Shown: piece after piece, positions 26,234 to 49,537 of the stretch | Position numbering within the stretch: the first letter of the stretch is position 1 | How the letters are laid out: every line of letters starts with the position of its first letter | Assembly: GCF_030846195.1 (NCBI RefSeq) | Contig: NZ_JAVCWH010000003.1 | Location: 62,001-126,000 of the forward strand | DNA length: 64,000 bases | Source: Paracoccus yibinensis | GTDB taxonomy: Bacteria > Pseudomonadota > Alphaproteobacteria > Rhodobacterales > Rhodobacteraceae | Direction: 5' to 3' | Made by a program: the position numbers and the translations under genes | The notes under the pieces: model-generated | The model's input: only the letters and a program-made list of their open reading frames with translations | Database searches by the model: none | Told to the model about the DNA's origin: nothing

Positions 26234-27075
26234 GGCAGGACCTCGGTCACGGTGGCGCCAAGGGCGCGCAGCCGGGACAGGTCCGCGGCCAAGTCGGGAA
26301 CCGCCAGCCGGGCCAGGCGGCTGCGATGCCCGTCGCTGACGGCCAGGGACCGGCCGGGGGGCTGCAACTCGGCCTCGTCCATGATCAGCGCCAGGGTCAG
26401 GGAACGGCGACGGGCCAGCGACGCCAGCATCGGCTCGGCCCCCTGCCAGCCATCGGGACCGGTGGCCACCAGCACCTGCCCGCCCGACGGCGACAGCCGC
26501 AGGACACGCGCCAGGCCCTCGGCCAGCGGCGGGTCCGCAGGGGCCGCCAGCGCCTGATCATGCTGATGGGCCAGGGCCTTGCAGATCGCGGACATGTGCC
26601 CGTCCCCGCCCGCGCCGGTGATTTCGGCCGCCCGCCCGCCCGCCAGCGTCAGCGCCGCGACCGCCCCCCCCCGCGCTGTCACGCGCCAGCCCGCCTGGGT
26701 CAGGTGCCGCGCAGCACGGACAGACCGAAGCGCGGCGCCCGTGCCCCACAGCATCGGCGCGCGGAAATCGGCCACCAGCAGGATCGTGTCGTCGCGGTCC
26801 TCGTGCAGGCTGCGGATATGGGGATGGCCGGTGCGCGCGGTGGCAGCGGGGTCCAGCCGCCGGGGATCGTCGCCCGCGACATAGGCGCGGATTTCGCGCA
26901 GATCCATACCCGCACCCGCCATCCGCGCGGGAACCGCCCCCGCCCGACGGGTCAGGGGACGATGGCGCTGCCTGCCCGGCGCCTGATCGCGCAGGGCCAA
27001 CAATTCGGCCGCCGTCAGGCGGATGCCGGGCGCGTCGGGCAATCCGGGGGGCAGGCTTGCAGAAAGGGCTACCAC
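26230..27075 (-). CDS. DUF58 domain protein
   Basis: A 281-aa protein. The DUF58 core shows DLREIRAYVAGDDPRRLDPAATAR (in two parts, DLREIRAYVAGDDPR and RLDPAATAR), followed by a VWA-like fold with ILLVADFRAPM. DUF58 proteins are partners of MoxR ATPases. It is second in the operon and overlaps moxR by 7 bp. A run of nine G in the coding strand (26664-26672) encodes Arg-Gly-Gly-Ala. Slippage there would truncate the protein and affect downstream coupled genes. This is shorter than many DUF58 proteins and lacks the N-terminal membrane helices. Confidence 0.85.
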   Translation of the reverse strand: MVALSASLPPGLPDAPGIRLTAAELLALRDQAPGRQRHRPLTRRAGAVPARMAGAGMDLREIRAYVAGDDPRRLDPAATARTGHPHIRSLHEDRDDTILLVADFRAPMLWGTGAALRSVRAARHLTQAGWRVTARGGAVAALTLAGGRAAEITGAGGDGHMSAICKALAHQHDQALAAPADPPLAEGLARVLRLSPSGGQVLVATGPDGWQGAEPMLASLARRRSLTLALIMDEAELQPPGRSLAVSDGHRSRLARLAVPDLAADLSRLRALGATVTEVLP

Positions 27076-28028
27076 GGCCGCACCTGGGCCAGGATCTCGG
27101 CCACGAGGCTGCGGCCGGTGCGCCCTTCACCGCTGGCCGACCAGGCGGGCACAAGGCGATGCGACAGGGCGTCGGCGGCCAGCGCCTCGGCATCCTCGGG
27201 CAAGCCGTGGTCGCGGCCGTGCAGCCAGGCACGCGCCCGCACGCCCGCCGCCAGCGCAAGCGTGCCGCGCGGCGACACGGGATGTTCCACCCATTCCGCC
27301 ACCGCGCCGCCGGACCGCGTGGCCATCACCAGCCGGACGATGAAATCCTTGAGCGCGGGGGCTAGATGGACCCGCGCGACCTCGGCCCGAGCACGCGACA
27401 GGTCGGCGGCCGATACCGTCGTGCCGCGCGGCGGTGCGGGCGCGACCGCCTCGGCCTCGACCAGGTCCAGGATCGCGCGTTCCGCGTCGGCCCCCGGCAG
27501 GTCAAGCCGCAGGTGCAGAAGAAAGCGGTCAAGCTGCGCCTCGGGCAAGGGGAAGGTGCCCTCATGCTCGATCGGGTTCTGGGTCGCCACGACCATGAAG
27601 GGATCCGGCAGCGGGCGGGTGGTGCCGCCTGTCGTCACCTGCCCCTCGGCCATCGCCTCCAGCAGCGCCGACTGCACCTTGGGCGGCGCGCGGTTGATTT
27701 CATCGACCAGCACCAGGCTGTGAAAGATCGGGCCGGGAATGAAATCGAAGCCGCCGGTTTCCGGCCGGAACACCTGCGTGCCGGTCAGATCCGAGGGCAG
27801 AAGGTCGGGCGTGCACTGGATGCGCGCGTGGCTGCCCGGCAGGTGGGCTGCCAGCGCCTTAACCGCACGGGTCTTGGCGATGCCCGGCGGGCCTTCGATC
27901 AGCACATGGCCGCCCGCAAGCAGGGCGATCAGCAACCGTTCGACCAGAACATCATGGCCGATCAGCGTCGCGCCGATCTCGGCCCCCAGGCGGCGGACGG
28001 CATGGGCCGGTTCGCTGTGATTGTCCAT
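27069..28028 (-). CDS. MoxR-family AAA+ ATPase
   Basis: A 319-aa cytosolic AAA+ chaperone. Walker A is EGPPGIAKT (about residues 45-53), Walker B is LVLVDEINRAPPK, sensor 1 is MVVATQNPIEHEGTFPLPEA and the lid domain follows. MoxR proteins act with VWA proteins to assemble or activate other complexes, as in methanol dehydrogenase maturation. It opens a seven-gene operon: moxR, DUF58, DUF4381-like, two VWA, TPR, BatD-like. The ATG at 28028 is used. The upstream 325 bp contain a large structured repeat, so its promoter must lie in or around 28030-28110. Confidence 0.92.
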   Translation of the reverse strand: MDNHSEPAHAVRRLGAEIGATLIGHDVLVERLLIALLAGGHVLIEGPPGIAKTRAVKALAAHLPGSHARIQCTPDLLPSDLTGTQVFRPETGGFDFIPGPIFHSLVLVDEINRAPPKVQSALLEAMAEGQVTTGGTTRPLPDPFMVVATQNPIEHEGTFPLPEAQLDRFLLHLRLDLPGADAERAILDLVEAEAVAPAPPRGTTVSAADLSRARAEVARVHLAPALKDFIVRLVMATRSGGAVAEWVEHPVSPRGTLALAAGVRARAWLHGRDHGLPEDAEALAADALSHRLVPAWSASGEGRTGRSLVAEILAQVRPW

Positions 28029-28131: not shown

Positions 28132-28346
28132 GGGACGAACGGGCGGAAGCAGAAAACGCACGGCGTTTTCCCGCCCGCGTGAGTGGGTCCCATCAGAAAC
28201 CGTGCCATCCAAGCCCACGAGAGGCCAGCGCCCGACCCGGTGGGCGTGAAGCGCCCGCCGGTGGCGGGGGGGGCGCTGGCCGGGCCTTTGAGGCCCGGCG
28301 GCTTGGATGGATAGGACAGCGCGTGGCAAAGGCGATGGCCTTTGCC
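28132..28346 (-). repeat. Structured intergenic element, copy A
   Basis: A 215-bp array of hairpins between the surf1 stop (28355) and moxR start (28028). Seen stems: GGGAC/GTCCC (28132-28136 with 28187-28191) enclosing CGGGCGG/CCGCCCG and GAAAACGC/GCGTTTTC; an 11-bp outer stem (28205-28215 with 28300-28310); inside it an 11-bp stem (28223-28233 with 28271-28281) capped by GGGCG-TGAAG-CGCCC, and CCGGGCCT-TTG-AGGCCCGG; and finally GGCAAAGGC/GCCTTTGCC (28325-28333 with 28338-28346). A related copy lies at 48118-48325. A further small hairpin is at 28111-28128. The rest of the 28029-28354 gap shows no gene. Confidence 0.75.
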
Positions 28347-28354
28347 ATGTCGGG

Positions 28355-29038
28355 TCATCGCCGCAGGGCATAGATCGTCAGCACCACCAGACCGCCCGCC
28401 ATGACGAACCAGGTCAGCGCATAGGACAGGTGGTGGTTTCGAAAGGCGATCACGGTCAGCCCGCCGATGGGCTGGCCTTCGCCCGCCCGGTCGGCATCGA
28501 TGAAATAGGGCGCGACCTCGGGCAGGTCCAGGCTGGCCGCAATGGCCCGGGTGTCGCGGGAATACCAGCGGCCCGCCTGCGGATCGTTGGCGCGCAGGAA
28601 GGCACCGTCGGGCTGGGTCAGGCGCAGCAGCCCCGTTACGCTCTGCGGGCCTTGCGGCAGCGGGCGGTCGTCGCGCCGGTCGGCGGCGACGAAGCCGCGA
28701 TTGACCAGCACGGTCCAGCCCTCATCGGTGACAAGCGGCGTCATGACCCAGAAGCCCGCCCCGCGTTCCGTCACGGCCTGCACCAGCACGTCGCTGTCCG
28801 GGCGGTATTCGCCCCCCACGATGACGCGGCGGTATTCGGCATTCTCGGCCGTCAGCCCCGCCCAGTCCGAGGGCGGCGGCGCGGGGACCGGGTCCGCCGC
28901 CACCCGCGCGTCCACGCGGGCGATCAGGTCGGTCTTCCAGGCCAGCCGCTGCACCTGCCAGCCGCCCAGGCCCATCAGGACCAGGAAGACGATCCCTGCC
29001 GCGACCAGCAGGGTGATGGGGCGGCGGCGGGCGGTCAC
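28355..29038 (-). CDS. SURF1 family oxidase assembly protein
   Basis: A 227-aa inner-membrane protein with the SURF1 layout: N-terminal helix (about residues 10-29), a periplasmic region of about 170 aa, and a C-terminal helix (YALTWFVMAGGLVVLTIYAL). The conserved features GGWQVQRLAWK, VLVNRGFVAADRR and YFIDADR are visible. In Paracoccus denitrificans a SURF1 encoded with the ba3 quinol oxidase operon (surf1q) helps insert heme a, which fits its place after cyoD here. Translation starts at GTG 29038, overlapping the cyoD stop by 4 bp. Confidence 0.92.
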   Translation of the reverse strand: MTARRRPITLLVAAGIVFLVLMGLGGWQVQRLAWKTDLIARVDARVAADPVPAPPPSDWAGLTAENAEYRRVIVGGEYRPDSDVLVQAVTERGAGFWVMTPLVTDEGWTVLVNRGFVAADRRDDRPLPQGPQSVTGLLRLTQPDGAFLRANDPQAGRWYSRDTRAIAASLDLPEVAPYFIDADRAGEGQPIGGLTVIAFRNHHLSYALTWFVMAGGLVVLTIYALRR

Positions 29039-29451
29039 GATCCCAGGCCCAGGGCCTCGTGGTTCATCTGGGGCATCATGTTGGTGTTCATGTTGTACAT
29101 GACCCACAGAGACCCGGACAGCACGATGACCAGGATCACGACGGTGAAGATCAGCGCCATCATGGTCCAGCCTTCGTCGCTGCGCGTGTTCATGTGCAGG
29201 AAATAGACCATGTGGACCAGGATCTGCACGATCGCCATGCCCACGACCACGGCGGCGGTCAGGAAGCGGCTTTCGAAGCCGCCCGCCATCACGATGGCAA
29301 AGGGGATTGCGGTCAGGATCACCGACAGGACGAAGCCGGTCAGATAGGACCGGACGCTGCCATGGTCGTGGCCGTCGTCGTGTTGGTCGCCATGCGCCTC
29401 GGCCTGGCGTTCCGCGCGATGCTTGTCGCCCTGGGCTTCAATCGAGGTCAT
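29035..29451 (-). CDS. cyoD: Cytochrome o/ba3 quinol oxidase subunit IV
   Basis: A small inner-membrane subunit of 138 aa with a His/Asp-rich N-terminus (GDQHDDGHDHGSVRSYLTGF) and three transmembrane helices. VQILVHMVYFLHMN is the family hallmark. It stabilises the CuB-heme centre in subunit I. The start is the ATG at 29451, sharing one base with the cyoC stop (TGATG). It is longer than E. coli CyoD (109 aa), mainly at the hydrophilic N-terminus. Confidence 0.92.
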   Translation of the reverse strand: MTSIEAQGDKHRAERQAEAHGDQHDDGHDHGSVRSYLTGFVLSVILTAIPFAIVMAGGFESRFLTAAVVVGMAIVQILVHMVYFLHMNTRSDEGWTMMALIFTVVILVIVLSGSLWVMYNMNTNMMPQMNHEALGLGS

Positions 29452-46801: not shown

Positions 46802-48073
46802 ATGAGCCATTCCGACGCCATCCTCGACCGCCTGATGTCGCTCCACCCCAAGGTCATCGACCTGTCGCTGGACCGCATGCACCGGCTGCTGGCGGCCCTG
46901 GGCAACCCCGAACGCCGCATCCCGCCGGTGATCCATATCGCGGGCACCAACGGCAAGGGCAGCACCCAGGCGATGATCCGGGCGGGGCTTCAGGCGGGTA
47001 GCTGCCGCGTCCACGCCTATACCTCGCCGCATCTGGCGCGCTTCCACGAACGCATCCGGCTTGCGGGCGATCTGATCCCAGAAACCGACCTGGCCGCGAC
47101 GCTGGAGGAATGCGAGGCCGCGAATGACGGCCAGCCCATCACTTTCTTCGAGATCACCACGGCGGCCGCCTTCCTGGCTTTTTCCCGCACGCCCGCCGAC
47201 TATACCCTGCTCGAGGTCGGCCTTGGCGGCAGGCTGGACGCCACCAACGTCATCGACGCCCCGCGCCTGACGGTCATTACCCCGGTCAGCATCGACCACA
47301 CGCAATACCTGGGCGACACGCTGCCGCTGATCGCAGGCGAAAAGGCCGGAATCATCAAGCGCGGCGTGCCCGTGATCATCGGCCCCCAGCAGGACGAGGC
47401 GCTGCGGGTGATCGAGGCCAAGGCATCGGGCCTGACCGCGCCGGTCTTCGCGCATGGCCAGCACTGGATGATCGCGCGCGACCGGGACGGCATGGTCTAT
47501 CAGGACGACCACGGCCTCTGGGACCTGCCGCTGCCGAACCTGATCGGCCCGCACCAGATCCAGAACGCCGGGACCGCGCTTGCCGCGCTGCGGCACCTGG
47601 GCGCGACGGATGCGCAAGCCCGCGCGGCGGTGACGCAGGCCGAATGGCCCGCCCGGATGCAGCGGCTGCGCCACGGCCCGCTGGTTGATCTGGCAGGCCC
47701 TCAGGCGGAACTGTGGCTGGACGGCGGCCACAACCCGGCGGGGGGCGAGGCTTTGGCCGCGACGCTCGCCGCCATGCCGCAGCGCCCGACGCATCTTGTC
47801 TGCGGGATGCTGAACACCAAGGACATCGCAGGTTATCTGCGGCCCCTGGCGGGCCATGCCCGTTCGCTGACCGCGATCGACATTCCCGGAGAGCCGAACA
47901 CCCTACCCGCCGAGACGACGGCAGAGGTGGCCGCCAGCGTTGGCCTGGATGCCGCGATCGCGCAGGATGCCGCTGCGGCCATCAAGGGGATCGTGGACAG
48001 CGATCCCAAGGCGCGGATCCTCATCTGCGGGTCGCTGTATCTGGCGGGGCGGGTGCTGCGGGAAAACGGGTAA
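46802..48073 (+). CDS. folC: Bifunctional folylpolyglutamate/dihydrofolate synthase
   Basis: A 423-aa Mur-ligase-type enzyme that adds glutamate to folates. The P-loop is GTNGKGS at residues 48-54. The Mur ligase middle domain and the C-terminal ligase domain (GGHNPAGGEALA near residue 305) are present. The ATG at 46802 is taken from the family alignment around HIAGTNGKGS. No Shine-Dalgarno can fit between it and the accD terminator. A downstream ATG at 46835 is an alternative. The 3' end faces zapE across a large structured repeat. Confidence 0.93.
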   Translation: MSHSDAILDRLMSLHPKVIDLSLDRMHRLLAALGNPERRIPPVIHIAGTNGKGSTQAMIRAGLQAGSCRVHAYTSPHLARFHERIRLAGDLIPETDLAATLEECEAANDGQPITFFEITTAAAFLAFSRTPADYTLLEVGLGGRLDATNVIDAPRLTVITPVSIDHTQYLGDTLPLIAGEKAGIIKRGVPVIIGPQQDEALRVIEAKASGLTAPVFAHGQHWMIARDRDGMVYQDDHGLWDLPLPNLIGPHQIQNAGTALAALRHLGATDAQARAAVTQAEWPARMQRLRHGPLVDLAGPQAELWLDGGHNPAGGEALAATLAAMPQRPTHLVCGMLNTKDIAGYLRPLAGHARSLTAIDIPGEPNTLPAETTAEVAASVGLDAAIAQDAAAAIKGIVDSDPKARILICGSLYLAGRVLRENG

Positions 48074-48117
48074 TTCCCCAAGATACGATCAATAGACAGC
48101 AAGGGCAGCTTCCGCAT

Positions 48118-48325
48118 GGGCGGGACAAGGAAACGCATGCGTTTCCCCCGCCCGCGTGATCGGGTGCCATCAGAAACGGTGCCATCCCGCGACCCCGGTA
48201 GGCCGGCGCCCGCCTCGGTGGGCGTGAAGCGCCCGCCGGGGGCGGGGCGGACGCTGGCCGGGCTTTTGAAGCCCGGCGGTGCAGGCTCCACCGGCAACAC
48301 GCAGCGAAGGCGATGGCCTTCGCTG
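48118..48325 (-). repeat. Structured intergenic element, copy B
   Basis: A 208-bp relative of the element at 28132-28346, between the convergent folC and zapE ends. Stems seen: GGGCGGG/CCCGCCC (48118-48124 with 48147-48153) enclosing GGAAACGC/GCGTTTCC; an 11-bp stem with one mismatch and one G-T pair (48201-48211 with 48249-48259) capped by GGGCG-TGAAG-CGCCC; CCGGGCTT-TTG-AAGCCCGG; and CAGCGAAGGC/GCCTTCGCTG (48302-48311 with 48316-48325). The outer 11-bp stem of copy A is missing; a separate CGGTG/CACCG hairpin (48277-48293) replaces it. The remainder of 48074-48326 shows no gene. Confidence 0.75.
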
Positions 48326-48326
48326 G

Positions 48327-49436
48327 TCAGGGCTGGCTACTCCCCCCGCCCCAACCCGCATCCTGCATCTCGCGCAAGCGGCTGGCCGTCCGCTCGAACT
48401 CGAAGCTGCCTTCGCCCTCGTTATACAGTTGCTCGGGCTGGTCCGCCCCGCTGGCGATCAGCCGGACCTTCGCCTCATAAAGCGCATCGATCAGCGTCAC
48501 GAAGCGCTTGGCCTCGTTGTAATTCGACGCCGACAGCCGGGGGATGCCGTCGATCATCAGCACCTGGACCCCGCGCGACAGGGCCAGGTAATCCGCCGGA
48601 CCCAGCGGCTTGCCGCAGAGATCCCAGAACCCCGACCGGCCGGCGCCACCTGCGAACAAGGGCAGCGTGAAGCTGCGCCCGCCAACCTCGATCCGGCGCG
48701 GCTCGCCTGCGGCCCCGCCTGTCAGGTCGTCCCAGATCACGTCCATCGCCGCCTTCGCTGCCGCATCCGCCGGGCAGAACCAGACCTGCCCGCCCGTCAG
48801 GCGCCCCTGCCGGTGGTCCACGGGGCTGTCCAGGCAGACGACCTCCAGCCGCTGGCGGATCAGGTCGATGAAGGGCAAAAACAACTGTCGGTTCAGTCCG
48901 TGCTTGTATAGATCCTCGGGCACCCGGTTCGAGGTGGTGACGATCACCACCCCTTGTTCCAGCAGCACCTGGAACAGCCGCCCCACGATCATCGCGTCGG
49001 CAATGTCGGTGATCTGCATCTCGTCAAAGCACAGAAGACGGACCCTGGCCGCGACCTCAAGCGCGACGGGGCGAACGGTGTCCTGGTCGCCCCGCTGGCG
49101 CGCGCGGTTCAGGCCCGCCTGGATTTCCTGCATGAATTCGTGGAAATGCACGCGGCGCGCGGGCACCGTCGCGGCCTCGGCCAGCAGGTCCATCAGCATC
49201 GACTTGCCGCGTCCGACCCCGCCCCAGAGATAAAGCCCCTTCGCCGCCGGGGCGGGGGGCGGTGGGCTGCCGACGCCCAGGAAGACCCGCCAGGCCGACC
49301 GCTTTTCGGGCGCGGGCGTGGCGGCGATGTCGTCCAGAACCCGGTCCAGATGCGGCAGCACGGAAATCTGCGCCGGATCCGGCTCGATCCGGCCCTCTGC
49401 CACGCGCTGCCGATAAACTTCGCTGACCTTTCCCAT
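48327..49436 (-). CDS. zapE: Cell division protein ZapE (AFG1-like ATPase)
   Basis: An AFG1/ZapE-family P-loop ATPase of 369 aa. Walker A is GGVGRGKSM (about residues 70-78), Walker B is LLCFDEMQ, and FHEFMQEIQ and TTSNRVPEDLYKHGLNRQLF (20 residues) are family segments. E. coli ZapE acts on FtsZ during division, and the mitochondrial relative AFG1 on respiratory proteins. The ATG at 49436 starts MGKVSEVY. It is convergent with folC and carries structured element B right after its stop. Confidence 0.92.
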   Translation of the reverse strand: MGKVSEVYRQRVAEGRIEPDPAQISVLPHLDRVLDDIAATPAPEKRSAWRVFLGVGSPPPPAPAAKGLYLWGGVGRGKSMLMDLLAEAATVPARRVHFHEFMQEIQAGLNRARQRGDQDTVRPVALEVAARVRLLCFDEMQITDIADAMIVGRLFQVLLEQGVVIVTTSNRVPEDLYKHGLNRQLFLPFIDLIRQRLEVVCLDSPVDHRQGRLTGGQVWFCPADAAAKAAMDVIWDDLTGGAAGEPRRIEVGGRSFTLPLFAGGAGRSGFWDLCGKPLGPADYLALSRGVQVLMIDGIPRLSASNYNEAKRFVTLIDALYEAKVRLIASGADQPEQLYNEGEGSFEFERTASRLREMQDAGWGGGSSQP

Positions 49437-49537
49437 GGGGCGCAACTGCCACGGATGCCAAAGGCCCCGCAAGGGCCAATGCTTGACCCGCAACCCGCCC
49501 CGTGCCACCCCTGCCAAGGCAAGCGCCACGAGGTTTC

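Follow-up and report, generated by a model that had tools for sequence, protein, structure and literature searches.

A probable mobile multi-hairpin repeat of Paracoccus and its T-shaped core in the Rhodobacteraceae

Hairpin-forming repeats scattered through a genome influence where transcripts end and how plastic the genome is; the best-known kind comes with a tag and a transposase. REP elements have been proposed as transcript boundaries, RIME/ERIC elements are ~100-200 nt intergenic palindromic repeats of proteobacteria, and the AAV terminal repeat is T-shaped, with an outer stem and two inner arms. In those parts of two published accounts that bear on them, REP and BIME elements are dispersed extragenic palindromes whose palindromy is kept and which lie mostly between convergent or unidirectional genes (PMC3733652, PMC2817692).

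The DNA analysed here (the window) is a 64,000-nt stretch of the Paracoccus yibinensis genome, in which two stretches, copies A and B, share a series of hairpins. They are most probably copies of a mobile, non-coding, structured multi-hairpin extragenic repeat; the data do not support reading them as a strand-specific 3'-UTR RNA or sRNA. The repeat is not described in the literature searched (CC-licensed PMC papers). Below, G and L numbers designate the genomes and loci compared, G000 being the window's genome.

Anatomy and covariation of the window copies

Copy A occupies 28140..28346 and copy B 48117..48324, both on the + strand; alignments of 28-49 copies fixed both ends of copy A, and multi-copy alignments set those of copy B. 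A preliminary description of the window had rightly recognized two copies here and a series of shared motifs, all of which are present in both sequences in the order given, but it started copy A at 28132, 8 nt too early by the multi-copy alignment. Calling the element two-copy was an undercount: a DNA search of the window's genome returned eight match rows, which fall at seven places, though only A and B are in the window, where they alone exceeded noise in a scan with R1, a covariance model of the core.

The element opens with a bulged left hairpin, which a linker joins to a three-way (T-shaped) core; a second hairpin and then the right hairpin follow. End profiles gave the same left end, (C)GGGCGGGA, and right end, GGCCTTCGCCA, in 49 copies, outside which conservation drops within about 6 nt. 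On the 5' side of the left hairpin some 4 bases are unpaired, the linker is variable, and the core is an outer stem plus inner arm(s). In copy A, the left hairpin (28140..28177, +; from CGGGCGG through the 5'-side unpaired bases to CCCGCCCG) corresponds to helices 1 and 2 of alignment A3, in which 5 of 16 pairs show two-sided changes. It is followed by the linker motif CCATCAGAAAC (28190..28200, +), read from the sequence and variable in other copies, and by the core (28223..28281, +; helices 3 and 4), with its outer stem GGCCAGCGCCCG.../...GGCGCTGGCC and inner arm GGGCG-TGAAG-CGCCC; R1 matched 28221-28301 at 45.5 bits. The second hairpin, CCGGGCCT/AGGCCCGG (28280..28298, +; helix 5), has two bases in common with the core stem, and the right hairpin, GGCAAAGGC-GATG-GCCTTTGCC (28325..28346, +), is helix 6. 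The core of copy B lies at 48201..48259 (+; R1 match 48199-48280, 49.3 bits), and its left hairpin (48117..48154, +), second hairpin CCGGGCTT/AAGCCCGG (48258..48276, +), and right hairpin AGCGAAGGC-GATG-GCCTTCGCT (48303..48324, +) were placed by sequence and the A3 alignment.

Both copies adjoin the stops of minus-strand genes, as had been reported. The SURF1 gene (28355..29107, -; PF02104, E 5.5e-55) has its stop 8 nt from the right end of copy A, and a ZapE/AFG1-like ATPase gene (48327..49529, -, its 5' end uncertain; PF03969, E 6.5e-104) has its stop 2 nt from that of copy B; the distances become 7 and 1 nt if the ends are set one base later. The other neighbour of copy A is a MoxR-type AAA ATPase gene (27069..28028, -; PF07726, E 5.9e-59), and that of copy B, convergent with ZapE, is a Mur-ligase family gene (46802..48073, +; PF02875 and PF08245), here called FolC.

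Folding of copies A and B beat 200 of 200 dinucleotide shuffles on either strand, with z values for the two strands of -7.7/-6.3 (copy A) and -5.2/-4.3 (copy B). In A3, which comprises 41 of the 49 end-profiled copies, two-sided changes were found in 10 of 54 pairs and 33 cells (4.9 and 8.6, respectively, in shuffles), and 95.4% of cells pair, compared with 94.0% in shuffles. Four of the five measures, the covariation score included, were above all 500 shuffles; the fifth, the count of further pair types, was not (187 of 500 shuffles equal or better). The four compensatory stem pairs described from copies A and B alone are real, each of them varying in this wider set: columns 20-38 (G-C 35, A-U 1, G-U 1, gap 4; A-U in copy A only), 168-176 (C-G 35, U-A 4), 210-231 (G-C 39, A-U 1, G-U 1; A-U in copy B only), and 213-228 (G-C 37, A-U 3). 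For the core alone, alignment A2 took 27 copies from different genomes (27 of 32 listed core loci, omitting five whose right part was cut or had diverged); two-sided changes occurred in 10 of 30 pairs, 94.3% of cells pair, and all five measures exceeded 500 of 500 shuffles. The covariation over many copies, with two-sided changes above 500 shuffles for 27 core copies and for 41 whole elements, supports the proposal of a selected structure made in the preliminary description. The core fold may switch, because an alternative pairing of its right part and of arm 1 scores about equally. Mispairs read on the + strand, in cells that are not independent, were G.U rather than A.C by 61 to 22 over the whole element and, likewise in non-independent cells, by 23 to 8 over the core.

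Copies, empty sites, and the shared core

A whole-element DNA search matched five of 61 genomes (the window's own, 36 congeners, and 24 other-family genomes), all within the genus: G000, G012, G022, G025, and, weakly (E 6.9e-4), G028. A pattern scan of named genomes found 31 stretches in Paracoccus lichenicola, P. shandongensis, P. haematequi, Fuscibacter oryzae, and a Pseudorhodobacter MAG. The ~210-nt repeat is one of Paracoccus, Pseudorhodobacter, and Fuscibacter. R1 gave at least 29 matches in G025 and at least four in G000 but none in G012, G022, or G028, though the DNA search had given whole, shortened, or diverged copies there. Copies per genome are lower bounds, the candidates scored in each genome being at most 13 (whole-element search), 4 (family core search), or 150 (R1).

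That the repeat is mobile, one of the readings proposed at the outset for this palindromic element, is supported by its copy number and by empty sites. At the SURF1 site, the element search found none in relatives, and in G003, G017, G022, G025, and G012 the downstream sequence is the same after a short spacer. The convergent stops at the ZapE site, 253 nt apart in the window's genome, are only 3-15 nt apart in five relatives (G003, G022, G017, G012, and G010). Because the relatives' sites are empty, copies A and B are lineage-specific insertions. Three more sites, L008 (G000) and L216 and L217 (G025), are empty in at least one relative each. At L008, the element lies between two intact stops in G000, and a script showed overlapping convergent stops in G022, G025, and G012. 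Two observations count against simple gain: G012 retains a shortened copy at the L216 site, and the flanks of L217 are about 3.5 kb apart in G000, G003, and G012. At a further site, the place that the element takes in P. lichenicola is occupied in P. shandongensis by a plain hairpin, GGCGCGGG-CAAT-CCCGCGCC. At one orthologous site (L003, L011, L221) the orientation of the element in G000 is the reverse of that in G022/G025, for which inversion in place and separate insertion would account alike. Flank alignments of core copies at L137 and at L169 and L175 suggest opposite orientations at the same site too.

The ZapE site of G025 has a 207-nt gap occupied by another hairpin-rich insert of similar anatomy (L264:1285-1485). 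It represents a second Paracoccus repeat type, unlike the element in sequence, which recurs in G025 and G567 and was found in G530 and G017; some match, in several cases a short one, was seen in 14 of 101 Paracoccus genomes.

In a plasmid search, Phaeobacter and Leisingera proved to have the central part of the element, which led to the shared core. A 98-nt Leisingera core query matched 198 plasmid records, and, at E <= 1e-3 and without a shuffled-query control, 131 of 198 Rhodobacteraceae genomes chosen at nearly one per genus; by our tally of the list, 114 of the 198 reach E 1e-6. Under stricter filters, five of 289 genomes in a class-wide draw (the family's share of the 289 not being given) matched the core: four from the same family, the window's own included, and one from outside it, weakly (E 3e-5). 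Among the matches listed, core copies are flanked by the same genes in up to four genera (for example L086/L139/L148/L154 and L070/L074/L091/L150), a sign that some of the family is old and has stayed in place.

Some genomes carry the core in a long form. A search pattern in which arm 1 held a gap of 54-84 nt matched in 68 of 295 Rhodobacteraceae genomes, with 66 matches in G591, 55 in G648, and, by our own count, 6 in all genomes for the reversed control; the loci are L350-L379 and L380-L419 (G591, G648, G632, and others). Thirty loci were read, and in 27 of the 28 with the core left stem the long-form stretch is 90-95 nt, L355 having 76 nt; L364 and L371 are chance matches, and L365, L367, and L368 are without the usual right half. 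Alignment A4 of the long form holds 24 of the 30. The ~139-nt length of core matches was suspected of being an artefact of the model's length limit, which we rejected since a scan with a 74-104 nt pattern still gave 90-95 nt. The inner sequence is similar within a genome (often containing CTTTATGG) and nearly free between genera. Three copies in G591 and G632 (L388 1095, L403 1095, and L405 1096) have in common an additional hairpin module, AAATCCTCCAGTGGAGGATTT, which sits in the second arm and starts with a short ORF. An encoded protein (MSDxKSSSGG...) was rejected for these copies, as the ORF ends after 30, 42, and 95 residues; we take the ORF to be part of the inserted hairpin module.

Placement beside genes and possible movers

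Genes were called by a simple script around the 45 Paracoccus-type copies with enough flank, five copies with <600 nt being omitted: 27 lie between convergent genes, 9 are sense and 6 antisense to both neighbours, 2 are divergent, and 1 is in a called ORF. The 44 called intergenic copies comprise 27 convergent, 15 tandem, and 2 divergent, against a background in which 28% of intergenic bases are convergent and 25% divergent (p 6e-6 and 4e-4, respectively); this background was drawn from the window and 8-kb loci with a home-made gene finder, and its convergent share is raised because several of these loci hold the element. A count of 93 core copies elsewhere (omitting four loci cut by contig ends, and with one site counted twice as L076 and L142, both inside a called ORF) gave 21 convergent, 23 sense, 32 antisense, 1 divergent, 11 in called ORFs, and 5 undetermined. 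Forty-three long-form copies from seven genomes were 22 convergent, 12 tandem, 7 divergent, and 2 other; the long form does not avoid divergent gaps as clearly as the Paracoccus type does.

These counts bear on the suggestion that the element is a 3'-UTR RNA or an sRNA source. A position after stop codons holds beyond the window, most copies (27 of 44) being between convergent genes, but strand specificity does not: tandem copies are sense or antisense in the ratio 9:6 (Paracoccus type) and 23:32 (core, other genera), and an orthologous site holds both orientations. Simple scans detected no sigma-70-like promoter at copy A or B, and a consensus scan no U-run terminator on either strand of them. 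The window has 0 Rfam 15 matches at gathering scores, and five core plus six long-form loci gave only three weak, off-target matches below gathering (E 0.17-0.4); no Rfam family was recognized. A structured + strand RNA of either kind that multiplied, its pairing being kept at the RNA level, is consequently improbable in our judgement, even though it would fit the compensatory changes, the + strand excess of G.U over A.C, the copies between the same genes in several genera, and a Leisingera plasmid core copy in which TTTTTT follows a hairpin.

As to how the repeat moved, the element might be a transposase-driven MITE, that is, a deletion derivative of an insertion sequence whose hairpins are remnants of its ends. 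The Paracoccus copies do have sharp ends with a faint GNCYGG symmetry, and in G105 (L141, L153, L194-L202) a MITE of 122-129 nt, with the TIR AAGACCTCTGCATAAC and 5-bp duplications, contains the core; both TIRs (<=5 changes) were found in 9 of 11 copies, with an exact 5-bp duplication in 4 of the 9 as against 0 of 72 mismatched pairings. The Paracoccus type, however, has no clear TIR in 49 copies apart from that symmetry, nor a target-site duplication, the best offset giving 4/49 (k=4) or 2/49 (k=5). An apparent peak at k=3 (13/49) was made by the element's own conserved ends. Compensatory change maintains the structure, which would not be expected of debris. A MITE origin is thus unlikely, and the alternative that the preliminary description had mentioned, MITE debris inserted at random with target-site duplications, finds no counterpart in the Paracoccus copies, which lack duplications (over 49 copies) and keep their pairing (over 41).

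The strand-biased mispairs and terminal hairpins, one with one-sided unpaired bases, are reminiscent of REP-like elements moved by a Y1 (HUH) transposase since lost from the carriers, as is the position between unidirectional and convergent genes that the relevant part of one paper reports for REPs (PMC3733652). We regard this as quite improbable, given that Y1_Tnp (PF01797) occurs in only 18 of 198 family genomes (by our tally, 15 of 131 core-bearing genomes and 3 of the other 67), that 33 Y1 loci contained no core match, and that the end profiles of 49 copies show no GTAG/CGTC tag. As a raw count, 14 of the 49 copies have a GTAG or CGTC tetramer, on one strand or the other, no more than 12 nt from an end. 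One of 13 Paracoccus genomes (G015) has Y1_Tnp, and the carriers G000, G025, G012, G022, and G028 have none; a Y1/RAYT partner as the present mover was therefore rejected, Y1_Tnp being absent from the tested carriers and the Y1 loci being without the core. At L009 in G025, a genome without a Y1_Tnp match, the palindromic GTAGGGTGGGGTTCCACCCCACC and a variant of it, a REP-like GTAG-tagged repeat, flank the element at 1501-1713.

At copies A and B and at further sites, roughly 1-43 nt of unshared sequence separate the insert from the adjacent stop. These bases count against clean transposition, because a clean event would leave none, and end joining or repeated local rearrangement would account for them no less well than a dedicated mover. 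There may accordingly have been no dedicated enzyme, fragments having been joined into intergenic breaks by end joining or brought in by recombination with imported DNA. The missing duplications, the unshared sequence of varying length on both sides, and the occurrence of either orientation at one site agree with this; ends that are sharp rather than ragged over 49 copies do not, and we give it only a small likelihood.

For the mobile structured repeat that we favour, copies could be moved by an enzyme supplied in trans, perhaps one recognising folded single-stranded DNA. Action in trans is proposed because no partner was found; in the window's genome, the 40 candidates scored out of 46 included no separate element with the same ends. 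A single-strand DNA mover is a tentative suggestion that we hold doubtful; it would explain the kept structure without strand preference, the terminal hairpins, and the missing target-site duplication. Copies might then persist at gene ends as two-way transcript boundaries, their hairpins acting on both strands to limit 3'-to-5' decay or the read-through of one convergent gene into the other. Such a role is possible, short of being probable, and would explain the gene-end placement; selection against insertion elsewhere explains that placement too.

Comparison with described elements

About two thirds of the genera sampled from this large family of marine and soil bacteria have the element core. 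It reaches tens of copies per genome (at least 29 of the core in G025 and 66 of the long form in G591), shows RNA-like covariation, and lacks both the REP-type tag and any known enzyme. Convergent gene pairs that occur in one genome with the element and in another without it provide natural before/after pairs, by which its effect on transcription is directly testable. A wider reading, speculative and rather unlikely, is that there is a family-wide class of structure-defined mobile elements, spread by an undescribed enzyme that recognises shape and not sequence, and both placed and kept between convergent stops as a portable two-way transcript boundary; one T-shaped core would then be carried by elements with different ends and sizes, namely an 83-nt type, one with an almost free-sequence arm insert of near-constant length, the ~125-nt MITE, and the ~210-nt Paracoccus types.

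The element resembles the AAV-type terminal repeat in shape only, as an outer stem with two inner arms, and no protein was found for it. RIME/ERIC-type repeats are alike, by general description alone, in being intergenic, palindromic, and ~100-200 nt long. MITEs share with it the character of short, non-autonomous, multi-copy insertions with empty sites, and the G105 form, which has TIRs and target-site duplications, is a proper MITE carrying the same core; the Paracoccus form, in which clear TIRs and duplications are absent and pairing is kept, is not a MITE by the tests made. Compared with the REP/BIME-RAYT system, the element is larger (~210 nt rather than 20-40), has a three-way core, and comes without the GTAG/CGTC tag and with no RAYT partner found, but it is likewise dispersed, extragenic, palindromic, and placed at gene ends, and it is REP/BIME elements that it works most like.
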